Notes under the pieces: generated by a model
What the model was told of the DNA's origin: nothing
The model's input: only the letters and a program-made list of their open reading frames with translations
Database searches by the model: none
Made by a program: the position numbers and the translations under genes
Part shown: positions 29,884 through 37,279 of the stretch, in pieces
How positions within the stretch are numbered: position 1 is the stretch's first letter
Layout of the letters: each line of letters opens with the position of its first letter
Assembly: GCA_022448955.1 (NCBI GenBank)
Contig: JAKVCU010000057.1
Location: 1-64,000 of the forward strand
Direction of reading: 5' to 3'
From: Saprospiraceae bacterium
GTDB taxonomy: Bacteria; Bacteroidota; Bacteroidia; Chitinophagales; Saprospiraceae
Length of the DNA stretch: 64,000 nt

Positions 29884-30495
29884 ATGAATATAATTCAGCA
29901 GCTAATCAGTGAAATCAGTGCATTGCCAACTATTGATTGGATCATTACACTTACTGCGATTATTTATTTACTACTAGCAACAAGAAATAATGTCTGGTGC
30001 TGGTTTTGGGGGATTATAAGTTGCTCTATTTGGGCGTATAGTAGCTTTGTCAATTATCAATTGTACTTAGACGCAGCTTTGCAGTTGTTTTACGTAGTCA
30101 TGGGTTTCGTAGGAATTTATCAATGGAAATATGGAAATAGTAAAGAAGAACTACCTATTTCTAAATTGTCAAGAAAAGACCACTTGCTTTGGTTAAGCAT
30201 CGGAAGTGTTGTTGCTGTCTTGTTTGGGTACTTTTTTGCTAAGCTTACTCCTGCAGCAGCTACCTATTTGGATGCTTTTACGACTATCTTTTCTATCATC
30301 GCTACTTTTTTTCTTGTTCGTAGAAAGTTGGACAATTGGATGTACTGGGTCATTATAGATGCCGTATATGTCTATTTGTATGCAAGCAGAGGGGCCTTTT
30401 TATTCGCCTTATTAATGGTTTGGTATGTTTACTTGGCAGCCAAAGCTTATTTTAATTGGAAAACAGAATGGCAAACAAAAAGTGGTCACTTATAA
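29884..30495 (+). CDS. pnuC: nicotinamide riboside/vitamin transporter PnuC
   Basis: A 203-residue product with about seven hydrophobic helices. Family motifs: NVWCWFWGIISCSIWAY, LYLDAALQLFYVVMGFVGIYQW and a second half with DNWMYWVIIDAVYVYLY. PnuC family members import nicotinamide riboside (or, in some cases, thiamine) by facilitated diffusion. No NadR or kinase gene is adjacent. The nqr operon that follows uses NADH, so a link to NAD supply is attractive but unproven. ATG 29884 is the first in-frame start and gives normal length. Confidence 0.93.
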   Translation: MNIIQQLISEISALPTIDWIITLTAIIYLLLATRNNVWCWFWGIISCSIWAYSSFVNYQLYLDAALQLFYVVMGFVGIYQWKYGNSKEELPISKLSRKDHLLWLSIGSVVAVLFGYFFAKLTPAAATYLDAFTTIFSIIATFFLVRRKLDNWMYWVIIDAVYVYLYASRGAFLFALLMVWYVYLAAKAYFNWKTEWQTKSGHL

Positions 30496-30600: not shown

Positions 30601-30608
30601 TATATTTG
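30601..30608 (+). promoter_or_regulatory. possible -7 element of the nqr operon
   Basis: TATATTTG matches TANNTTTG 70 nt before nqrA. A TTG lies upstream but at longer than usual spacing (31 nt). Confidence 0.4.
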
Positions 30609-30678: not shown

Positions 30679-32322
30679 ATGAGAAACAAAAATACAAACA
30701 AAATCATTTGCCTAACGGCATTTTTGCTCTTCGCAGAAATGGTATCTGCACAATCTGCTAAGTCAGGAGATTCTAATTACTTAATTTATTCCTTGATGGC
30801 AGTGGCTGTTCTAATTTTCTTTTTCTTATTGGTTCAGGTATCTGATAATTTATTAGCAATTGAAGCTAAGCAATCAGGTGCAGACAAGGATGGAGCAAAC
30901 TTTGGCATTTTTCCTAGTTTGTCTGAAATCTTTGCACCAAAATTGCCAGACTATGTGGCTAACAAAAAGGTTCATGCTTTAAGCAAAGGACATGATATCT
31001 TACTGGAAGGTGGTGTAACAACGAATAATGTGCATCAGGTAAATGTAAAAACTTTTGCGGTACAACCTAAAAACTTCACAGGCCTTTCTCCCATTCCTAA
31101 GGTAGTTGTGGAGGTGGGAGCAACAGTGAAAGCTGGTGACCACTTATTCTACGATAAGAAAGACCCAAAGGTAATGCACGTTGCGCCAGTTAGTGGCGAA
31201 ATCATTGCGATTAACAGAGCTGAAAAAAGATCAATAGCTGAGATCGTTATCCTTGCAGACAAAGAGCAGGTATATCGCTCTTTGGACGAAATTGATCTAG
31301 ACCAAGTAAGTAGAGAAGAACTAGTAAACTTTTTGTTGGATAATGGAATTTGGCCTTTGATCCGTCAACGTCCATTTAATATCATTCCTAGTCAAACAGA
31401 AGTACCTAGGGATATCTTTATTTCAACCTTTGACACGGCGCCTTTGGCTCCCAACTCGAATGTAGTAATTGAAGGGAAAGAAGACGCTTTCCAGAAAGGT
31501 CTAGATGTATTGAATAAGCTAACTGATGGTTCAGTTCATTTGGGTGTAAGCGCAAACGGAGAAGAAGCTCCTTCTAATGCTTTCACTCATGCACAGGGTG
31601 CAGAAATTCATTACTTTAGCGGAAAGCATCCTGCAGGTAATGTGGGAGTTCAAATCCATCATATCAAGCCTATTAACTCGGGTGATAAAGTTTGGACATT
31701 AGGTGTTCAGGAAGTTATCACTATCGGACGTTTGTTCACTGAAGGCCGCTATAATGCTGAACGAGTTGTTGCAGTGACTGGTGCTGAATTGAGTGAACCA
31801 AAATATGTTAGTACCAAATTAGGTGCCAACATGGGAGACTTACTAGTTGGTAATATGACTGGTGATAATAATCGTATTGTTTCTGGTGATGTCTTAACTG
31901 GTCAAAAGAAAGAAACTACTCAATATTTAAATATTTTTGACGATCAAGTAACGGTAATACAAGAAGGAGACTACTACGAAATGTTTGGTTGGTTGATCCC
32001 AGTTGATCCTAGGCCAAGTATTTCAAATACATTCCCTAACTTCCTATTTCCTGATTTAAAGTTCCGCGCGAATACAAACACTCATGGTGAGAGACGTGCT
32101 TTCGTGGTAACAGGGCAATATGAGTCTGTATTACCAATGGATATCTATCCACAACATTTAATGAAGGCAATTCTAGTGAAGGATTTCGAGCGTATGGAAG
32201 GTTTGGGTATCCTAGAATTAGCAGAAGAAGATGTTGCACTTTGTGAATTTGTTTGTACGTCTAAGCAACCATTGCAACAGATTCTAAAAGAAGGCTTAGA
32301 TATCGTTCGCGAACAAAGCTAG
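30679..32322 (+). CDS. nqrA: Na+-NQR subunit A with N-terminal membrane-anchor extension
   Basis: A 547-residue product. Residues ~98-547 are a standard NqrA (HALSKGHDILLEGG, RPFNIIPSQTEVPRDIFIS, HPAGNVGVQIHHI, PQHLMKAILVKD), the ~450-residue quinone-interacting cytoplasmic subunit. The first ~97 residues are extra: a signal-like helix (8-24), a second hydrophobic helix (34-56) and a linker. Canonical NqrA has no membrane helix. The frame is continuous and starts at ATG, so the extension belongs to the gene. It is the first gene of the nqrABCDEF operon that couples NADH oxidation to Na+ export. Confidence 0.93.
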   Translation: MRNKNTNKIICLTAFLLFAEMVSAQSAKSGDSNYLIYSLMAVAVLIFFFLLVQVSDNLLAIEAKQSGADKDGANFGIFPSLSEIFAPKLPDYVANKKVHALSKGHDILLEGGVTTNNVHQVNVKTFAVQPKNFTGLSPIPKVVVEVGATVKAGDHLFYDKKDPKVMHVAPVSGEIIAINRAEKRSIAEIVILADKEQVYRSLDEIDLDQVSREELVNFLLDNGIWPLIRQRPFNIIPSQTEVPRDIFISTFDTAPLAPNSNVVIEGKEDAFQKGLDVLNKLTDGSVHLGVSANGEEAPSNAFTHAQGAEIHYFSGKHPAGNVGVQIHHIKPINSGDKVWTLGVQEVITIGRLFTEGRYNAERVVAVTGAELSEPKYVSTKLGANMGDLLVGNMTGDNNRIVSGDVLTGQKKETTQYLNIFDDQVTVIQEGDYYEMFGWLIPVDPRPSISNTFPNFLFPDLKFRANTNTHGERRAFVVTGQYESVLPMDIYPQHLMKAILVKDFERMEGLGILELAEEDVALCEFVCTSKQPLQQILKEGLDIVREQS

Positions 32323-32366: not shown

Positions 32367-33629
32367 ATGAAAAAGGCATTATTAAATTTCTTCAATCGAA
32401 TTGAGCCAGACAAGAAAAAGCAACCGCTTTTACATACGGCTTATGATGCTTTCTTTACGTTTGCATTTACACCAAATACGGTAACGGCATCAAAAGAGGT
32501 TCACTTACGTGATGGTATGGATCTTAAGCGTACTATGGTACACGTAGTACTAGCAATGCAGCTTTGTTACTTATTTGGTACTTACAATATTGGTCATCAG
32601 CACTTCACAGCACTAGGAATGTATGAAAGTTTCTTTGCTGGGTTTCACTTGAAGTTGGCTTATGGCCTAATCAAATTACTTCCTATTTTCATTGTAGCTC
32701 ACGTTGTGGGGCTAGGTATTGAGTTCTGGTATGCTGCTAAGAAAGGCCACGCTGTGGAGGAAGGATTCTTAGTATCTGGTGCTTTGATTCCACTCATCAT
32801 GCCACCAGACATTCCATTATGGATCTTGGCTATTTCTGTAGCTTTCGCTGTAATTATAGGAAAAGAAGCATTTGGTGGTACAGGTATGAACGTACTTAAC
32901 ATTGCTTTACTTTCACGTGTATTCATCTTCTTTGCTTACCCAACTGATATCTCCGGTGATGCAGTATGGGTGGCAGGTATCGAAGAAGGTGTGAGCCAAA
33001 GCTATGGTATGGTATATGGTGTTTTTGATGGACTATTTGGTGCCCTCGGCTTAGATCAGTTCGGTAGTGGAGGCGTTCCCGTCGTCGATGGATTTACCGG
33101 AGCCACCCCGCTCTCTTTGGCCTTCCAAGGGGGTTGGGAAAATGTAACAAAGGTATATTCTGAATCTGCCATGTTTTGGGGAACTATCCCTGGGTCAATT
33201 GGCGAGACGAGCAAGCCTTTTATCCTCTTTGGTGCTGTATTCTTGATTATCACTGGTATCGCTAGTTGGAGAATTATGGTATCCATGATTCTTGGTGGAG
33301 CAGTAATGTCTTTACTATTAAATGCTTGGGGAGCTACTCCATTTATGGATGTACCTTGGTACTTCCAATTCTATATGGGCAGCTTCTTCTTCGCTATGGC
33401 ATTTATGGCTACTGACCCCGTAACGGCTTCTTCTACCAATGTGGGCAAATGGATATATGGATTTATGATTGGTTTTGTGGGTATGATTGTACGGGTCCTA
33501 AACCCAGCATATCCAGAAGGATGGATGTTAGCTATTTTGTTCATGAATGTATTCGCACCACTAATCGATCACTATGTGTTAGAAGCGAATATGAAGCGCA
33601 GGGCAAGAAGAGCAACAGCAACTGCATAA
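32367..33629 (+). CDS. nqrB: Na+-NQR subunit B
   Basis: A 420-residue, about ten-helix membrane subunit, slightly longer than typical. The covalent FMN attachment motif is DGFTGATPLSL with the flavin-bearing threonine at residue 247. FGGTGMNVLNIAL and FFFAMAFMATDPVTAS are typical of NqrB/RnfD. It carries FMN and part of the sodium path in the inner membrane. It lies 44 nt after nqrA and 45 nt before nqrC. Confidence 0.96.
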   Translation: MKKALLNFFNRIEPDKKKQPLLHTAYDAFFTFAFTPNTVTASKEVHLRDGMDLKRTMVHVVLAMQLCYLFGTYNIGHQHFTALGMYESFFAGFHLKLAYGLIKLLPIFIVAHVVGLGIEFWYAAKKGHAVEEGFLVSGALIPLIMPPDIPLWILAISVAFAVIIGKEAFGGTGMNVLNIALLSRVFIFFAYPTDISGDAVWVAGIEEGVSQSYGMVYGVFDGLFGALGLDQFGSGGVPVVDGFTGATPLSLAFQGGWENVTKVYSESAMFWGTIPGSIGETSKPFILFGAVFLIITGIASWRIMVSMILGGAVMSLLLNAWGATPFMDVPWYFQFYMGSFFFAMAFMATDPVTASSTNVGKWIYGFMIGFVGMIVRVLNPAYPEGWMLAILFMNVFAPLIDHYVLEANMKRRARRATATA

Positions 33630-33674: not shown

Positions 33675-34400
33675 GTGAATACAACAAGATATGTTCTAGT
33701 TTTTGTGTTGGCTTTGACCGCAATTGTAGCAGTTCTGCTTACTTCTTTGCGTGAAGCAACAAAAGTACAAGCACAGCTTAACGAAGAAATCTTCGAAAAA
33801 CGTGCTATCCTTAAAGCTGTTCAAGATCACCTAGGTGAAAATGTGGAAGTCGATAACCTATCTGATGATGAGGTATTAAAGATCTTTAATGGTAGTGTTG
33901 AGCAAAAGGTTCTTGATATGGATGGCTCAGAGATAGATGGAATGGCAGCGGAGGATGTAGACATGGCCAAGGAAAAGAAAAAGCCGGAGGAAGAACGAGT
34001 ACTACCATTATTCATCTACTCACCAGAAGGTTCAGAAGATAATTTTTATATCGTATCTGTACGTGGAAATGGTCTTTGGGACGAGATATGGGGTAATATA
34101 GCTTTTGAAAGCGACCTCAACACTATTACAGGTGCCACCTTTGATCATAAAGGTGAAACGCCTGGCCTAGGCGCTGAAATCAAAGATAACCCTACCTTCG
34201 CTAAAAACTTTAAAGGAACAAAAATCTATAAAGATGGAGCCTATGTTTCTGTTGAAGTAAAAAAAGGTGGCGCTCAAGATGAAACTCATCAAGTAGATGG
34301 TATCTCTGGAGCAACTGTAACAGCAGACGGTGTTTCTGAAATGCTTTACAGAGGGATCAAATACTACGAACCGTATTTTGAAAAGGCACGTAGTAAATAA
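33675..34400 (+). CDS. nqrC: Na+-NQR subunit C
   Basis: A 241-residue product with one N-terminal membrane helix (RYVLVFVLALTAIVAVLL) and a periplasmic FMN-binding domain. ITGATFDHKGETPGLGAEI and the flavin-attachment motif SGATVTADGV (threonine 214) are present. The start is GTG 33675, the only plausible start before the membrane helix. It accepts electrons within the NQR complex and passes them on to NqrB. Residues ~75-100 form an acidic, methionine-rich insert between helix and domain. Confidence 0.95.
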   Translation: MNTTRYVLVFVLALTAIVAVLLTSLREATKVQAQLNEEIFEKRAILKAVQDHLGENVEVDNLSDDEVLKIFNGSVEQKVLDMDGSEIDGMAAEDVDMAKEKKKPEEERVLPLFIYSPEGSEDNFYIVSVRGNGLWDEIWGNIAFESDLNTITGATFDHKGETPGLGAEIKDNPTFAKNFKGTKIYKDGAYVSVEVKKGGAQDETHQVDGISGATVTADGVSEMLYRGIKYYEPYFEKARSK

Positions 34401-34439: not shown

Positions 34440-35150
34440 ATGGCAGAGACAGCAGTTCAAGAAAAAGAACCTTTATTAGCCTTTGGTAAAAATGAACAAA
34501 AGTTATTATCGGATCCATTAAATGATAATAACCCGATTACTGTTCAGGTCTTGGGGATTTGTTCTGCATTAGCAGTTACTTCTTTGGTCGTACCTTCTGT
34601 GGTAATGTCCATAGCAGTAGTTTTTGTATGTGCATTTTCAAGTCTCTTTACTTCCTTATTGCGTAACTATATTCCTAAGCAGGTACGTATGATTGTACAG
34701 CTTGTAATTATCGCCTCTCTGGTGACGGTTGTAGAGCTGACCCTACAATTTTTGAACTACCCGATTTATAAGCAGCTATCTGTATATATTGGTTTGATCA
34801 TTACTAACTGTATCGTAATGGGCCGTTTAGAGGCTTTCGCAATGGCAAATAAGCCTTGGCGCTCCTTCCTTGATGGTGTAGGTAATGGTTTAGGTTATGG
34901 TGCAATTCTTATCATGGTGGCCCTTATTCGTGAGCTATTCGGTAAAGGAAGTTTATTTGCAGGAAGTGGCATTGAAATGAAAATCATTGGAGCTTCTACG
35001 GATTACTTTATCAATACGCAGACGAATACTTGGTTTGCTTGGTATGCTAATAACAACCTTATGGTATTACCAGCAGCAGCGATGTTTATCATCGGTATCT
35101 TCATTTGGATTCAGCGTAGCTACAATACCAAATTGGTAGATATTTCGTAG
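34440..35150 (+). CDS. nqrD: Na+-NQR subunit D
   Basis: A 236-residue product with six membrane helices and a soluble N-terminal leader of about 30 residues, a little longer than usual. Family segments: DPLNDNNPITVQVLGICSAL, NCIVMGRLEAFAMANKP and DGVGNGLGYG. NqrD and NqrE form the paired channel-like core that holds an iron centre via conserved cysteines (C112-type, in TNCIVMGR). Part of the nqr operon, 39 nt after nqrC. Confidence 0.95.
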   Translation: MAETAVQEKEPLLAFGKNEQKLLSDPLNDNNPITVQVLGICSALAVTSLVVPSVVMSIAVVFVCAFSSLFTSLLRNYIPKQVRMIVQLVIIASLVTVVELTLQFLNYPIYKQLSVYIGLIITNCIVMGRLEAFAMANKPWRSFLDGVGNGLGYGAILIMVALIRELFGKGSLFAGSGIEMKIIGASTDYFINTQTNTWFAWYANNNLMVLPAAAMFIIGIFIWIQRSYNTKLVDIS

Positions 35151-35265: not shown

Positions 35266-35877
35266 ATGGGCGAGTTTTTTAATGTATTCATAAAAGCGGC
35301 TTTTGTTGAGAACCTAGTTTTGGCCTATTTCTTAGGTATGTGTTCTTACTTAGCGGTTTCAAAAACCGTAAAAACAGCATTTGGTCTTGGTCTTGCAGTT
35401 ATCTTTGTATTAGGTATCACAATGCCAATCAACTGGTTAATTGCAGAGTATTTATTGAGTGAAAATGGTGTTTTTGGAATGGATTTGACTTTCTTACGTC
35501 TGATTCTTTTCATTGCTGTTATTGCATCAATGGTACAATTAGTAGAAATGATTGTGGAGAAATACTCTCCCTCACTATATAATGCACTTGGTATCTTCTT
35601 ACCACTAATTACCGTAAACTGTGCTATTTTGGGTGGCTCCTTATTTATGGTTTCTCGTGAATATGACCTTACTCAATCTGTAGCATTTGGTCTTGGTGGT
35701 GGTTTCGGATGGTTCTTAGCAATTATTGCTATTGCAGCTATTCGTGAGAAAATCCGTTACTCAGCAGTTCCTGCGCCACTTCGTGGCCTTGGTATGGCAT
35801 TCATCATTACTGGTTTAATGGGAATAGCATTCATGAGTTTGATGGGTATTGATCCAGCTGCATTTGCGTCAAACTAG
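35266..35877 (+). CDS. nqrE: Na+-NQR subunit E
   Basis: A 203-residue, six-helix membrane protein. Motifs: [20 protein letters not shown], a [16 protein letters not shown] segment mirroring the NqrD motif, and [13 protein letters not shown]. It is the partner of NqrD in the inner-membrane iron/electron pathway. It lies 115 nt after nqrD, the longest gap in the operon; the gap contains no hairpin with a T-run, so read-through is expected. Confidence 0.95.
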
Positions 35878-35977: not shown

Positions 35978-37279
35978 ATGATAATCTTATATGCTGTAAT
36001 CGTATTTAGTCTTGTGATTCTGGCCTTGTCTTTCATGCTGATTTTTGCAAGAAAGCAGCTTGTACCACAAGGTGACGTAAAGATCGTCGTAAACGGCGAT
36101 GCTGAGAATCCCATTTTGGTTCAGCCTGGAGCTTCTTTACTGAACGCTTTATCTGACCAAAATATCTTTCTTCCATCTGCTTGCGGTGGTGGTGGTACTT
36201 GTGCTATGTGTGAGTGTCACATCGACAGTGGTGGGGGAGATGTCCTACTGACAGAGCTTAATCACTTAACTCGTCGTGAAGTAGCTGAAAACAAGCGTTT
36301 GGCTTGTCAGGTGAAGGTTCGCCAAGATATGGAAGTTCGTATCCCAGAAGAAATCTTTGGTATCAAGAAGTGGGAGTGTGAGGTGGTTTCTAACTACAAT
36401 GTGGCTTCTTTCATTAAGGAGTTTGTCGTAAAATTGCCAGAGGGTGAAACAATGGATTTTGAATCAGGTGGATATATCCAGATTGATGTACCAACGGTAA
36501 CTGTTGACTATAAGAATATGGATATCTCAGCTCACCCTGAGCACCATGGTGATGATCCAAAGAAATTCCAAAGTGAATGGGATAAATATAATCTTTGGGA
36601 CTTAAAAATGGTTAACGATGAGGAGCAATTCCGTGCATACTCCATGGCTAACCACCCAGCAGAGGGTAACATCATCATGTTGAATATTCGTATTGCTACT
36701 CCTCCACCAGATCGTGTAAATGGTGGTTGGTTGCCAGTTAATCCAGGTGTTTGTTCATCTTACGTATTTGATCAAAAACCTGGTGATAAAGTAACAATTT
36801 CTGGTCCTTATGGTGAATTCTTCATCAAACCGACAAAGAAAGAAATGGTTTATATTGGTGGTGGTGCAGGTATGGCGCCTTTGCGTTCTCACTTATTCCA
36901 CATATTCCATACACTAAAAACAACGGATCGTAAAGTATCATTCTGGTATGGTGGACGTACGCGTCGTGAGTTATTTTACATTGAACAATTCCGTGAAATT
37001 GAGAAGCAATTCCCTAATTTTAAGTTCTATGTAGCATTGGATAACCCACTTCCAGAAGATAACTGGCAGGTTAAAGAAAATATGGATGCTGAGGGTGATG
37101 GCTTCAAAGGCTATATCATGCCTGTAGTGATGGAACAGTATCTTAATAATCATCCAGAGCCAGAAGAAATTGAATACTATTTCTGTGGACCTCCTTTGAT
37201 GAATGCTTCTGTAATCAAAGCTTTAGATGAGTTGGGTGTCCCAGAAGAAAACATTTCTTTTGATGACTTTGGTGGCTAG
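35978..37279 (+). CDS. nqrF: Na+-NQR subunit F (NADH dehydrogenase)
   Basis: A 433-residue product with an N-terminal membrane helix (4-25) and a 2Fe-2S ferredoxin domain with C69, C75, C78 and C110 ([14 protein letters not shown]). The FAD motif is RAYSMANHP and the NADH-binding motifs are [12 protein letters not shown] and [11 protein letters not shown]. It takes electrons from NADH and starts the NQR chain on the cytoplasmic side. It is about 25 residues longer than Vibrio NqrF because of an insert near residues 175-205 ([13 protein letters not shown]). Last gene of the operon, with a strong terminator after it. Confidence 0.96.

Follow-up and report, generated by a model that had tools for sequence, protein, structure and literature searches.

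The nqrA gene studied here most likely encodes a lineage-specific, membrane-anchored form of NqrA, in which the N-terminal extension would act as a permanent tether (we put the probability of this reading at about 0.72). NqrA is thus very probably pinned into the membrane in saprospiral bacteria. This form is a confirmed and conserved variant of a well-known subunit, and we found the anchored form described nowhere in the literature searched.

The window, that is the whole stretch of 64,000 nucleotides that was analysed, carries a complete nqrABCDEF operon on the + strand, with nqrA as its first gene and its end at position 37279. nqrA is an open reading frame of 547 codons with an ATG start (30679-32322), in which 97 in-frame residues precede the canonical NqrA start. 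The core (residues 98-547, 30970-32319) was identified from sequence profiles and structure alignment. The Pfam NQRA_N match starts at residue 101, NCBIfam NF003761 covers residues 100-545 (522.7 bits for a cut-off of 450) and TIGR01936 residues 102-543 (449 bits for a cut-off of 321.05). An AF2 model built from a 48-sequence alignment (A1; pLDDT 87.9, pTM 0.84) aligned with Vibrio cholerae NqrA (7xk3_A) over 434 residues, with a Z score of 47.0, an rmsd of 2.0 and 35% identity. Residue 1 of 7xk3_A superposes on residue 98 of the model, so the canonical start that the sequence-only reading had put at "about residue 98" is exact; the in-frame membrane anchor of about 97 residues that it had described is also real. 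The protein is therefore a NqrA by family membership, by fold and by its place at the head of the operon, but it appears not to be of the soluble V. cholerae type, which starts at the core and has no helix, since a helix is predicted ahead of the core. The other genes of the operon were assigned by family profile: nqrB (32367-33629), whose product has an N-terminal arm, nqrC (33675-34400, GTG start as annotated), nqrD (34440-35150), nqrE (35266-35877) and nqrF (35978-37279), whose product has, by eye, an N-terminal hydrophobic stretch of its own. NqrB to NqrF each score above their own TIGR cut-off, NqrC barely so (149.4 versus 144). An open reading frame for a PnuC-like nicotinamide riboside transporter (by eye) lies on the same strand at 29884-30495, 183 bases upstream of the operon.

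Read from its N-terminus, the extension looks like a cleavable signal peptide, then a single transmembrane helix, then a cytosolic linker that contains a conserved patch. The putative signal peptide occupies residues 1-24 (30679-30750) and consists of MRNKNTNK, a hydrophobic core and VSA, with Gln25 next in the sequence. Indeed, the features of a Sec substrate of signal peptidase I obeying the Q-rule (n-region, hydrophobic core, small-x-small site and Gln at +1) are all present in residues 1-25, and Q25 is at least 90% conserved in a 34-row alignment (A2). In our own scan, which used 104 usable sequences out of the 119 distinct extended forms, a small-x-small motif followed by Gln was found before the helix in 98 of 104, compared with a mean of 42 and a maximum of 56 after shuffling. 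A stricter version of the motif was found in 91 of 104 (shuffled mean 35, maximum 49). Residues 25-34 (30751-30780) would form a short periplasmic tail, which is deduced from the topology and contains few charges across relatives. The predicted transmembrane helix (residues about 35-55, 30781-30843) has a hydropathy of 2.86, falls within an AF2 helix spanning residues 32-66, and is kept where the signal peptide is absent. Its position is well defined, as in 122 of 138 loci the best 17-residue hydrophobic window starts 60-66 residues ahead of the core, a count made before the removal of duplicates and of two mis-classified loci.

In 114 of 119 forms, lysine and arginine were more frequent on the C-terminal side of the helix than on its N-terminal side (windows of 20 and 12 residues). 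With equal windows of 12, they were commoner after the helix in 104 forms, equal in 12 and fewer in three. Acidic residues were likewise commoner after the helix. This charge distribution points to a predicted N-out/C-in topology, well supported by inference, leaving the NqrA core in the cytoplasm; NqrA is known to sit on the cytoplasmic face, and a cytosolic core would agree with this. The predicted cytosolic linker, residues 56-97 (30844-30969), was delineated from column frequencies and a profile match. Among 108 Saprospiraceae sequences, it displayed conserved D56 (80%), N57 (73%), E62 (80%), G67 (88%), P79 (87%), F85 (75%) and P90 (85%), and the position of Glu83 held Glu in 41% and Asp in 16%. 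AF2 confidence was low at residues 61-90 (pLDDT 63-71). Pfam also matched the extension to Anthrone_oxy at E 0.02, which is below cut-off and was taken as chance. The sequence-only reading had counted two helices in the extension. Both hydrophobic stretches are present, but they are not equivalent: the second corresponds to a transmembrane helix, whereas the first resembles a signal peptide that would be cleaved off ahead of Gln25, and mature NqrA should therefore have one membrane helix.

Three tests (codon selection, promoter position and profile homology) agree in indicating that the extension is translated. It is under purifying, protein-level selection. In 25 independent pairs, with 70-97% core identity and a start codon before -80 in both members, pooled pN/pS was 0.28 in the extension versus 0.175 in the core, and substitutions in the extension were distributed over the three codon positions as 492/287/1069. 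With a pN of 0.157 versus 0.111, the extension changes faster than the core. Upstream of the gene, the element TAnnTTTG (TATATTTG), which we take to be the Bacteroidota -7 promoter consensus, lies at 30601-30608 on the + strand, 70 bases before the nqrA ATG. It is the sole match on this strand between 30496 and 31200, for a background of 47 per 64 kb on the + strand of the window. Of 79 extended genes, 76 have the same element within 250 bases before the outer start, and six have it inside the extension, scanned as 291 bases from the outer start. These 79 are the distinct extended genes, out of 119, that belong to the first 133 loci and have an assigned outer start with 250 bases upstream available. 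A plain sigma-70 scan, whose model does not cover Bacteroidota promoters, gave no site above shuffles. Finally, profile comparison indicates that the extension is homologous across six families. After removal of core residues, the Saprospiraceae profile matched that of seven sequences from five other families with an hhalign probability of 97.6%, and the linker alone gave 96.0% versus 1.2% for a reversed control; the hhalign controls (reversed sequences and NqrC/NqrF anchors) gave 0.7-1.5%.

The extended form was present in 81 of the 88 genomes of the window's family with a readable NqrA N-terminus, and in 56 of 58 sampled genera. The in-frame fusion put forward by the sequence-only reading therefore holds as a family-wide trait and not as a one-off. 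The seven genomes lacking the anchor belong to genera g75 (four of four readable), g19 (two of three) and g86 (one of one); no extended form was found in g75 and g86, and g19 is mixed. Within the family, the anchor is missing from L067 and L075 (g19) and from L077 (g86), and g19 seems to keep a signal-peptide-like stretch without the helix. Because the anchor is absent in seven genomes, we argue that it is not essential and that NQR can do without it. Ten genomes of the family had no NqrA match at all, and seven others (G001, G011, G013, G014, G020, G235 and G242) fall outside the 88, with only fragments or a broken gene. In G242, the nqrA match (C1:3134630-3136297) is interrupted by stop codons and lies in two pieces.

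NqrA matches were obtained in 46 of 60 nearest-relative genomes, 95 of 248 genomes of the order, 157 of 396 of the class and 64 of 296 of the phylum, each of these draws including members of the window's own family. Ten of the 64 phylum matches, weak only, were read as RnfC-like. These genomes provided 133 loci, of which 132 were classified; L108, a g75 locus cut by a contig end, was left out of the family count. One truncated locus (L029) and 19 of 212 loci, as duplicates, were left out before counting. L106 and L190 were reassigned by eye from extended to short because their hydrophobic stretch lies before their own ATG; L117 similarly has hydrophobic stretches upstream of its own ATG. Within the same order, families f5, f10, f13, f21 and f22 also have extended forms, and f2, f6, f9, f11, f12, f14 and f17 have short ones (one to eight genomes each). 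Outside the order, no stop-free match among those listed starts before query residue 71, and 20 genes, chosen partly for their long open frames, all read as short. Isolates with the extension include Phaeodactylibacter xiamenensis, Neolewinella aurantiaca and xylanilytica, Lewinella sp. IMCC34183 and Membranihabitans, names drawn from a set of at least 584 relatives, of which the best 80 were kept, and not from a census. Such named records put the window's family in Saprospiraceae or next to it. An assembly artefact or a private fusion was rejected, given the presence of the form in isolates and in 56 of the 58 genera.

A tree was computed from 96 NqrA cores, 42 of them extended and 54 not, after thinning by identity. 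It requires 5 changes of the extended state, compared with 31.4 in shuffles, and the Saprospiraceae NqrA group, with 35 extended and 2 short rows, has an SH-aLRT of 100; 51 of 93 inner branches are open, with low support. Constraining the extended rows together with two nested losses, a grouping chosen after the tree was seen, gave a likelihood better than that of the free quick search by 21.83 (p-AU 0.74). One gain followed by losses is compatible with this tree, without being proven by it. Short NqrAs of g75 were found at four loci (L106, L107, L109 and L110). The two included in the tree (L106 and L109) fall outside the Saprospiraceae NqrA group, so g75 may have acquired its NQR separately or represent an older branch. 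Three short NqrAs (L114, L115 and L179), 51-54% identical to that of the window, group together; their sources are families whose placement goes no further than the same phylum, and a bin labelled Acidobacteria, and transfer or mis-binning is possible.

We also searched for a source of the anchor. In the window's own genome, where 150 of 184 candidates were scored, only nqrA matched at E values up to 10. The PDB profile search gave no convincing match (best E 0.083; 6btm_A at E 0.97), nor did Pfam, where matches were scattered over 30 families; the best of these (E 0.00085) was to a putative antitoxin family, matched by 3 of 34 members. In order-mates, at least 16 non-nqrA proteins were found among the profile matches listed. 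Fourteen were examined by eye: nine were CcoP-like, one CcoN-like, two ActA-like and two small and CcmD-like. The CcoP-like and ActA-like matches are weak (E 7.8e-5 to 0.01). Two of these, L230 and L231, were named by eye as an ActA-like cytochrome of alternative complex III; their membrane segment looks similar to the NqrA anchor on visual comparison, with weak profile matches at E about 0.005.

The NqrB subunit was inspected as the docking partner of the core. In V. cholerae, NqrA is held by a C-terminal loop intertwined with the NqrB arm and by a hydrophobic segment, according to the available part of PMC9325719. The window's NqrB and 22 NqrBs from extended lineages (of 112), compared by eye and unaligned, keep an N-terminal arm like that of V. 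cholerae. As the arm is still present, the NqrA core, itself canonical, probably docks in its usual place and would not be re-positioned, an option that the sequence-only reading had raised; the anchor would add to the arm without replacing it. Replacement of a lost NqrB arm by the anchor was thus rejected for the NqrBs inspected. For the same reason the tether looks redundant beside the arm. The median length of NqrB is 423 in extended lineages versus 407 in short ones (112 and 23 sequences), and most of the approximately 16 additional residues fall around positions 204-231 (66 and 23 sequences). The description of NqrA as the quinone-site subunit, given by the sequence-only reading, is contested: the available parts of the two structural papers place the ubiquinone head ring near NqrA (PMC9325719) or report quinone and HQNO bound in NqrB (PMC10643135).

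In the mechanism that we propose, the signal peptide would bring the NqrA precursor to the Sec translocon and be cut off before Gln25, as its sequence features suggest. The helix at residues 35-55 would then stop transfer, giving the N-out/C-in orientation expected from the residue distribution. About 42 cytosolic linker residues would lead into an otherwise ordinary NqrA core, which would dock on NqrB in the usual way. The tether could thereby deliver NqrA to the membrane during translation and keep it beside NqrB, and with the anchor the complex would have 25 transmembrane helices, one more than the 24 found in V. cholerae. A tether aiding both assembly and retention would be the simplest reading.

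Alternatively, the helix and the linker patch might form a docking module that binds another membrane partner, such as a quinol-oxidising complex or an oxidase, to build a larger assembly. We consider this doubtful. The linker is conserved across families beyond the need of a bare spacer, but its conservation may equally reflect contact with NqrB or with NqrA itself. Similarly, the CcoP-like and ActA-like proteins of order-mates might hint at such partners, but their similarity to the anchor stays within the weak E values given above, and the window's own genome provided nothing besides nqrA. A more specific version, in which the helix and a P-x-x-x-[E/D]-hydrophobic-F patch would join Na+-NQR to a second respiratory complex in Saprospiria, seems to us improbable. 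If true, it would amount to a sodium-pumping supercomplex of a kind not formed by V. cholerae-type NQR.

An explanation of comparable, low likelihood is that only delivery matters, the signal peptide and helix speeding co-translational assembly and the helix having no role in the finished enzyme. The retention of nqrA where the anchor is missing (g19, g86 and g75) and the presence of the NqrB arm would agree with it. However, helix and linker are under selection, and 15 of the 119 distinct extended forms retain the helix without the signal peptide. The scripted count gave 97 forms with signal peptide and Gln, 5 with signal peptide and without Gln and 16 without signal peptide, and one form (L085) was a start-codon miss; in L066, scripted as lacking the signal peptide, it is present by eye, bringing the 16 to 15 (L027, L028, L056, L060, L064, L079, L082, L104, L158, L160, L165, L167, L172, L174 and L180). 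L079 was counted as lacking the signal peptide and its sibling L173 as having it, both being ambiguous; no promoter element was seen for L173. Each of the 15 has its nearest promoter element 8-109 bases upstream of the inner start. These inner starts therefore look real, and the helix looks like the selected part. Because it is kept in these 15 forms, we argue that the helix itself is probably what matters. Some of these forms are nearest each other, while others look like separate losses. Saprospira grandis NqrA also has the helix without signal peptide. The possibility that these forms are frameshifts was rejected: a weak signal-peptide-like stretch in another frame was seen in two of the 15 (L160 and L082), and taken as chance, and in none of the other 13.

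Uncleaved signal anchors exist, and cleavage is here predicted from sequence; NqrA could then be a hairpin of two helices whose ends both lie in the cytoplasm. We regard this as quite unlikely, since the cleavage-site motif with Gln at +1, seen in 98 of 104 sequences, fits the Bacteroidetes Q-rule as set out in the available part of PMC5837995. Finally, translation from near residue 93-98, with the upstream frame arising by chance or left untranslated, is hardly credible: a GTG codon (V93, base 30955) does lie near the core start, and some ATG, GTG or TTG falls within the 12 codons before the core in 40 of 119 extended genes, but ATG does so in just five of 119, and codon-level selection, promoter position and cross-family conservation all oppose it. 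(An ATG 4-6 codons before the core was the definition of a "short" gene; the 69 of 69 for this class is by construction and provides no evidence.) An internal start or internal promoter was rejected on these grounds; the sequence-only reading had named translation from around residue 95, with a promoter lying within the extension, as what would speak against it, and codon selection and promoter placement contradict this.

With the membrane-tethered NqrA as the preferred reading, most sampled family members, cultured isolates included, have NqrA as a predicted membrane protein, a device kept under selection. The natural series of full anchor, helix without signal peptide and no anchor lets its effect on NQR assembly and turnover be tested. 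NqrA is also a defined inner-membrane protein for testing the Bacteroidetes Q-rule, described in the available parts of PMC5837995 and PMC10653852; the former states that inner membrane proteins have still to be tested for pyroglutamate. In the parts available of PMC9325719, PMC10643135 and PMC4014512, NqrA is a hydrophilic or cytosolic subunit that has no transmembrane segments. The main text of PMC4014512 contains neither the term "signal peptide" nor "extension", and the available part of PMC10739449 holds nothing on NqrA anchoring. Among the matches listed in the open literature (titles and starts of abstracts, subscription journals being mostly outside this scope), no description of an anchored NqrA was found.

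Compared with known systems, window residues 98-547 share the core fold of V. cholerae Na+-NQR NqrA (7xk3, 8acw), but a signal peptide, helix and linker are predicted in front, whereas V. cholerae NqrA has no transmembrane helix (PMC9325719 and PMC10643135, available parts) and is the sole subunit of six without one (PMC9325719, likewise). NqrC and NqrF are hydrophilic subunits with one transmembrane helix each, in the available part of PMC10643135. The anchored NqrA would resemble NqrF in having the helix first and the cytosolic domain after, although the NqrC and NqrF anchors have no profile similarity to the NqrA anchor (hhalign 0.7-1.5%). RnfC, a NqrA homologue, has the same fold (Z 26.4-27.1), but Rnf alignments start at model residues 92-96 and leave the anchor unaligned. 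CcoP of the Bacteroidota cbb3 oxidase likewise has a signal peptide and then a membrane helix (9 sequences, named from sequence by eye), but carries cytochrome domains in place of NqrA, and the weak similarity may be architectural only. Finally, the substrates of signal peptidase I that obey the Q-rule (PMC5837995, available part) share with NqrA the Gln at +1 of the predicted site.
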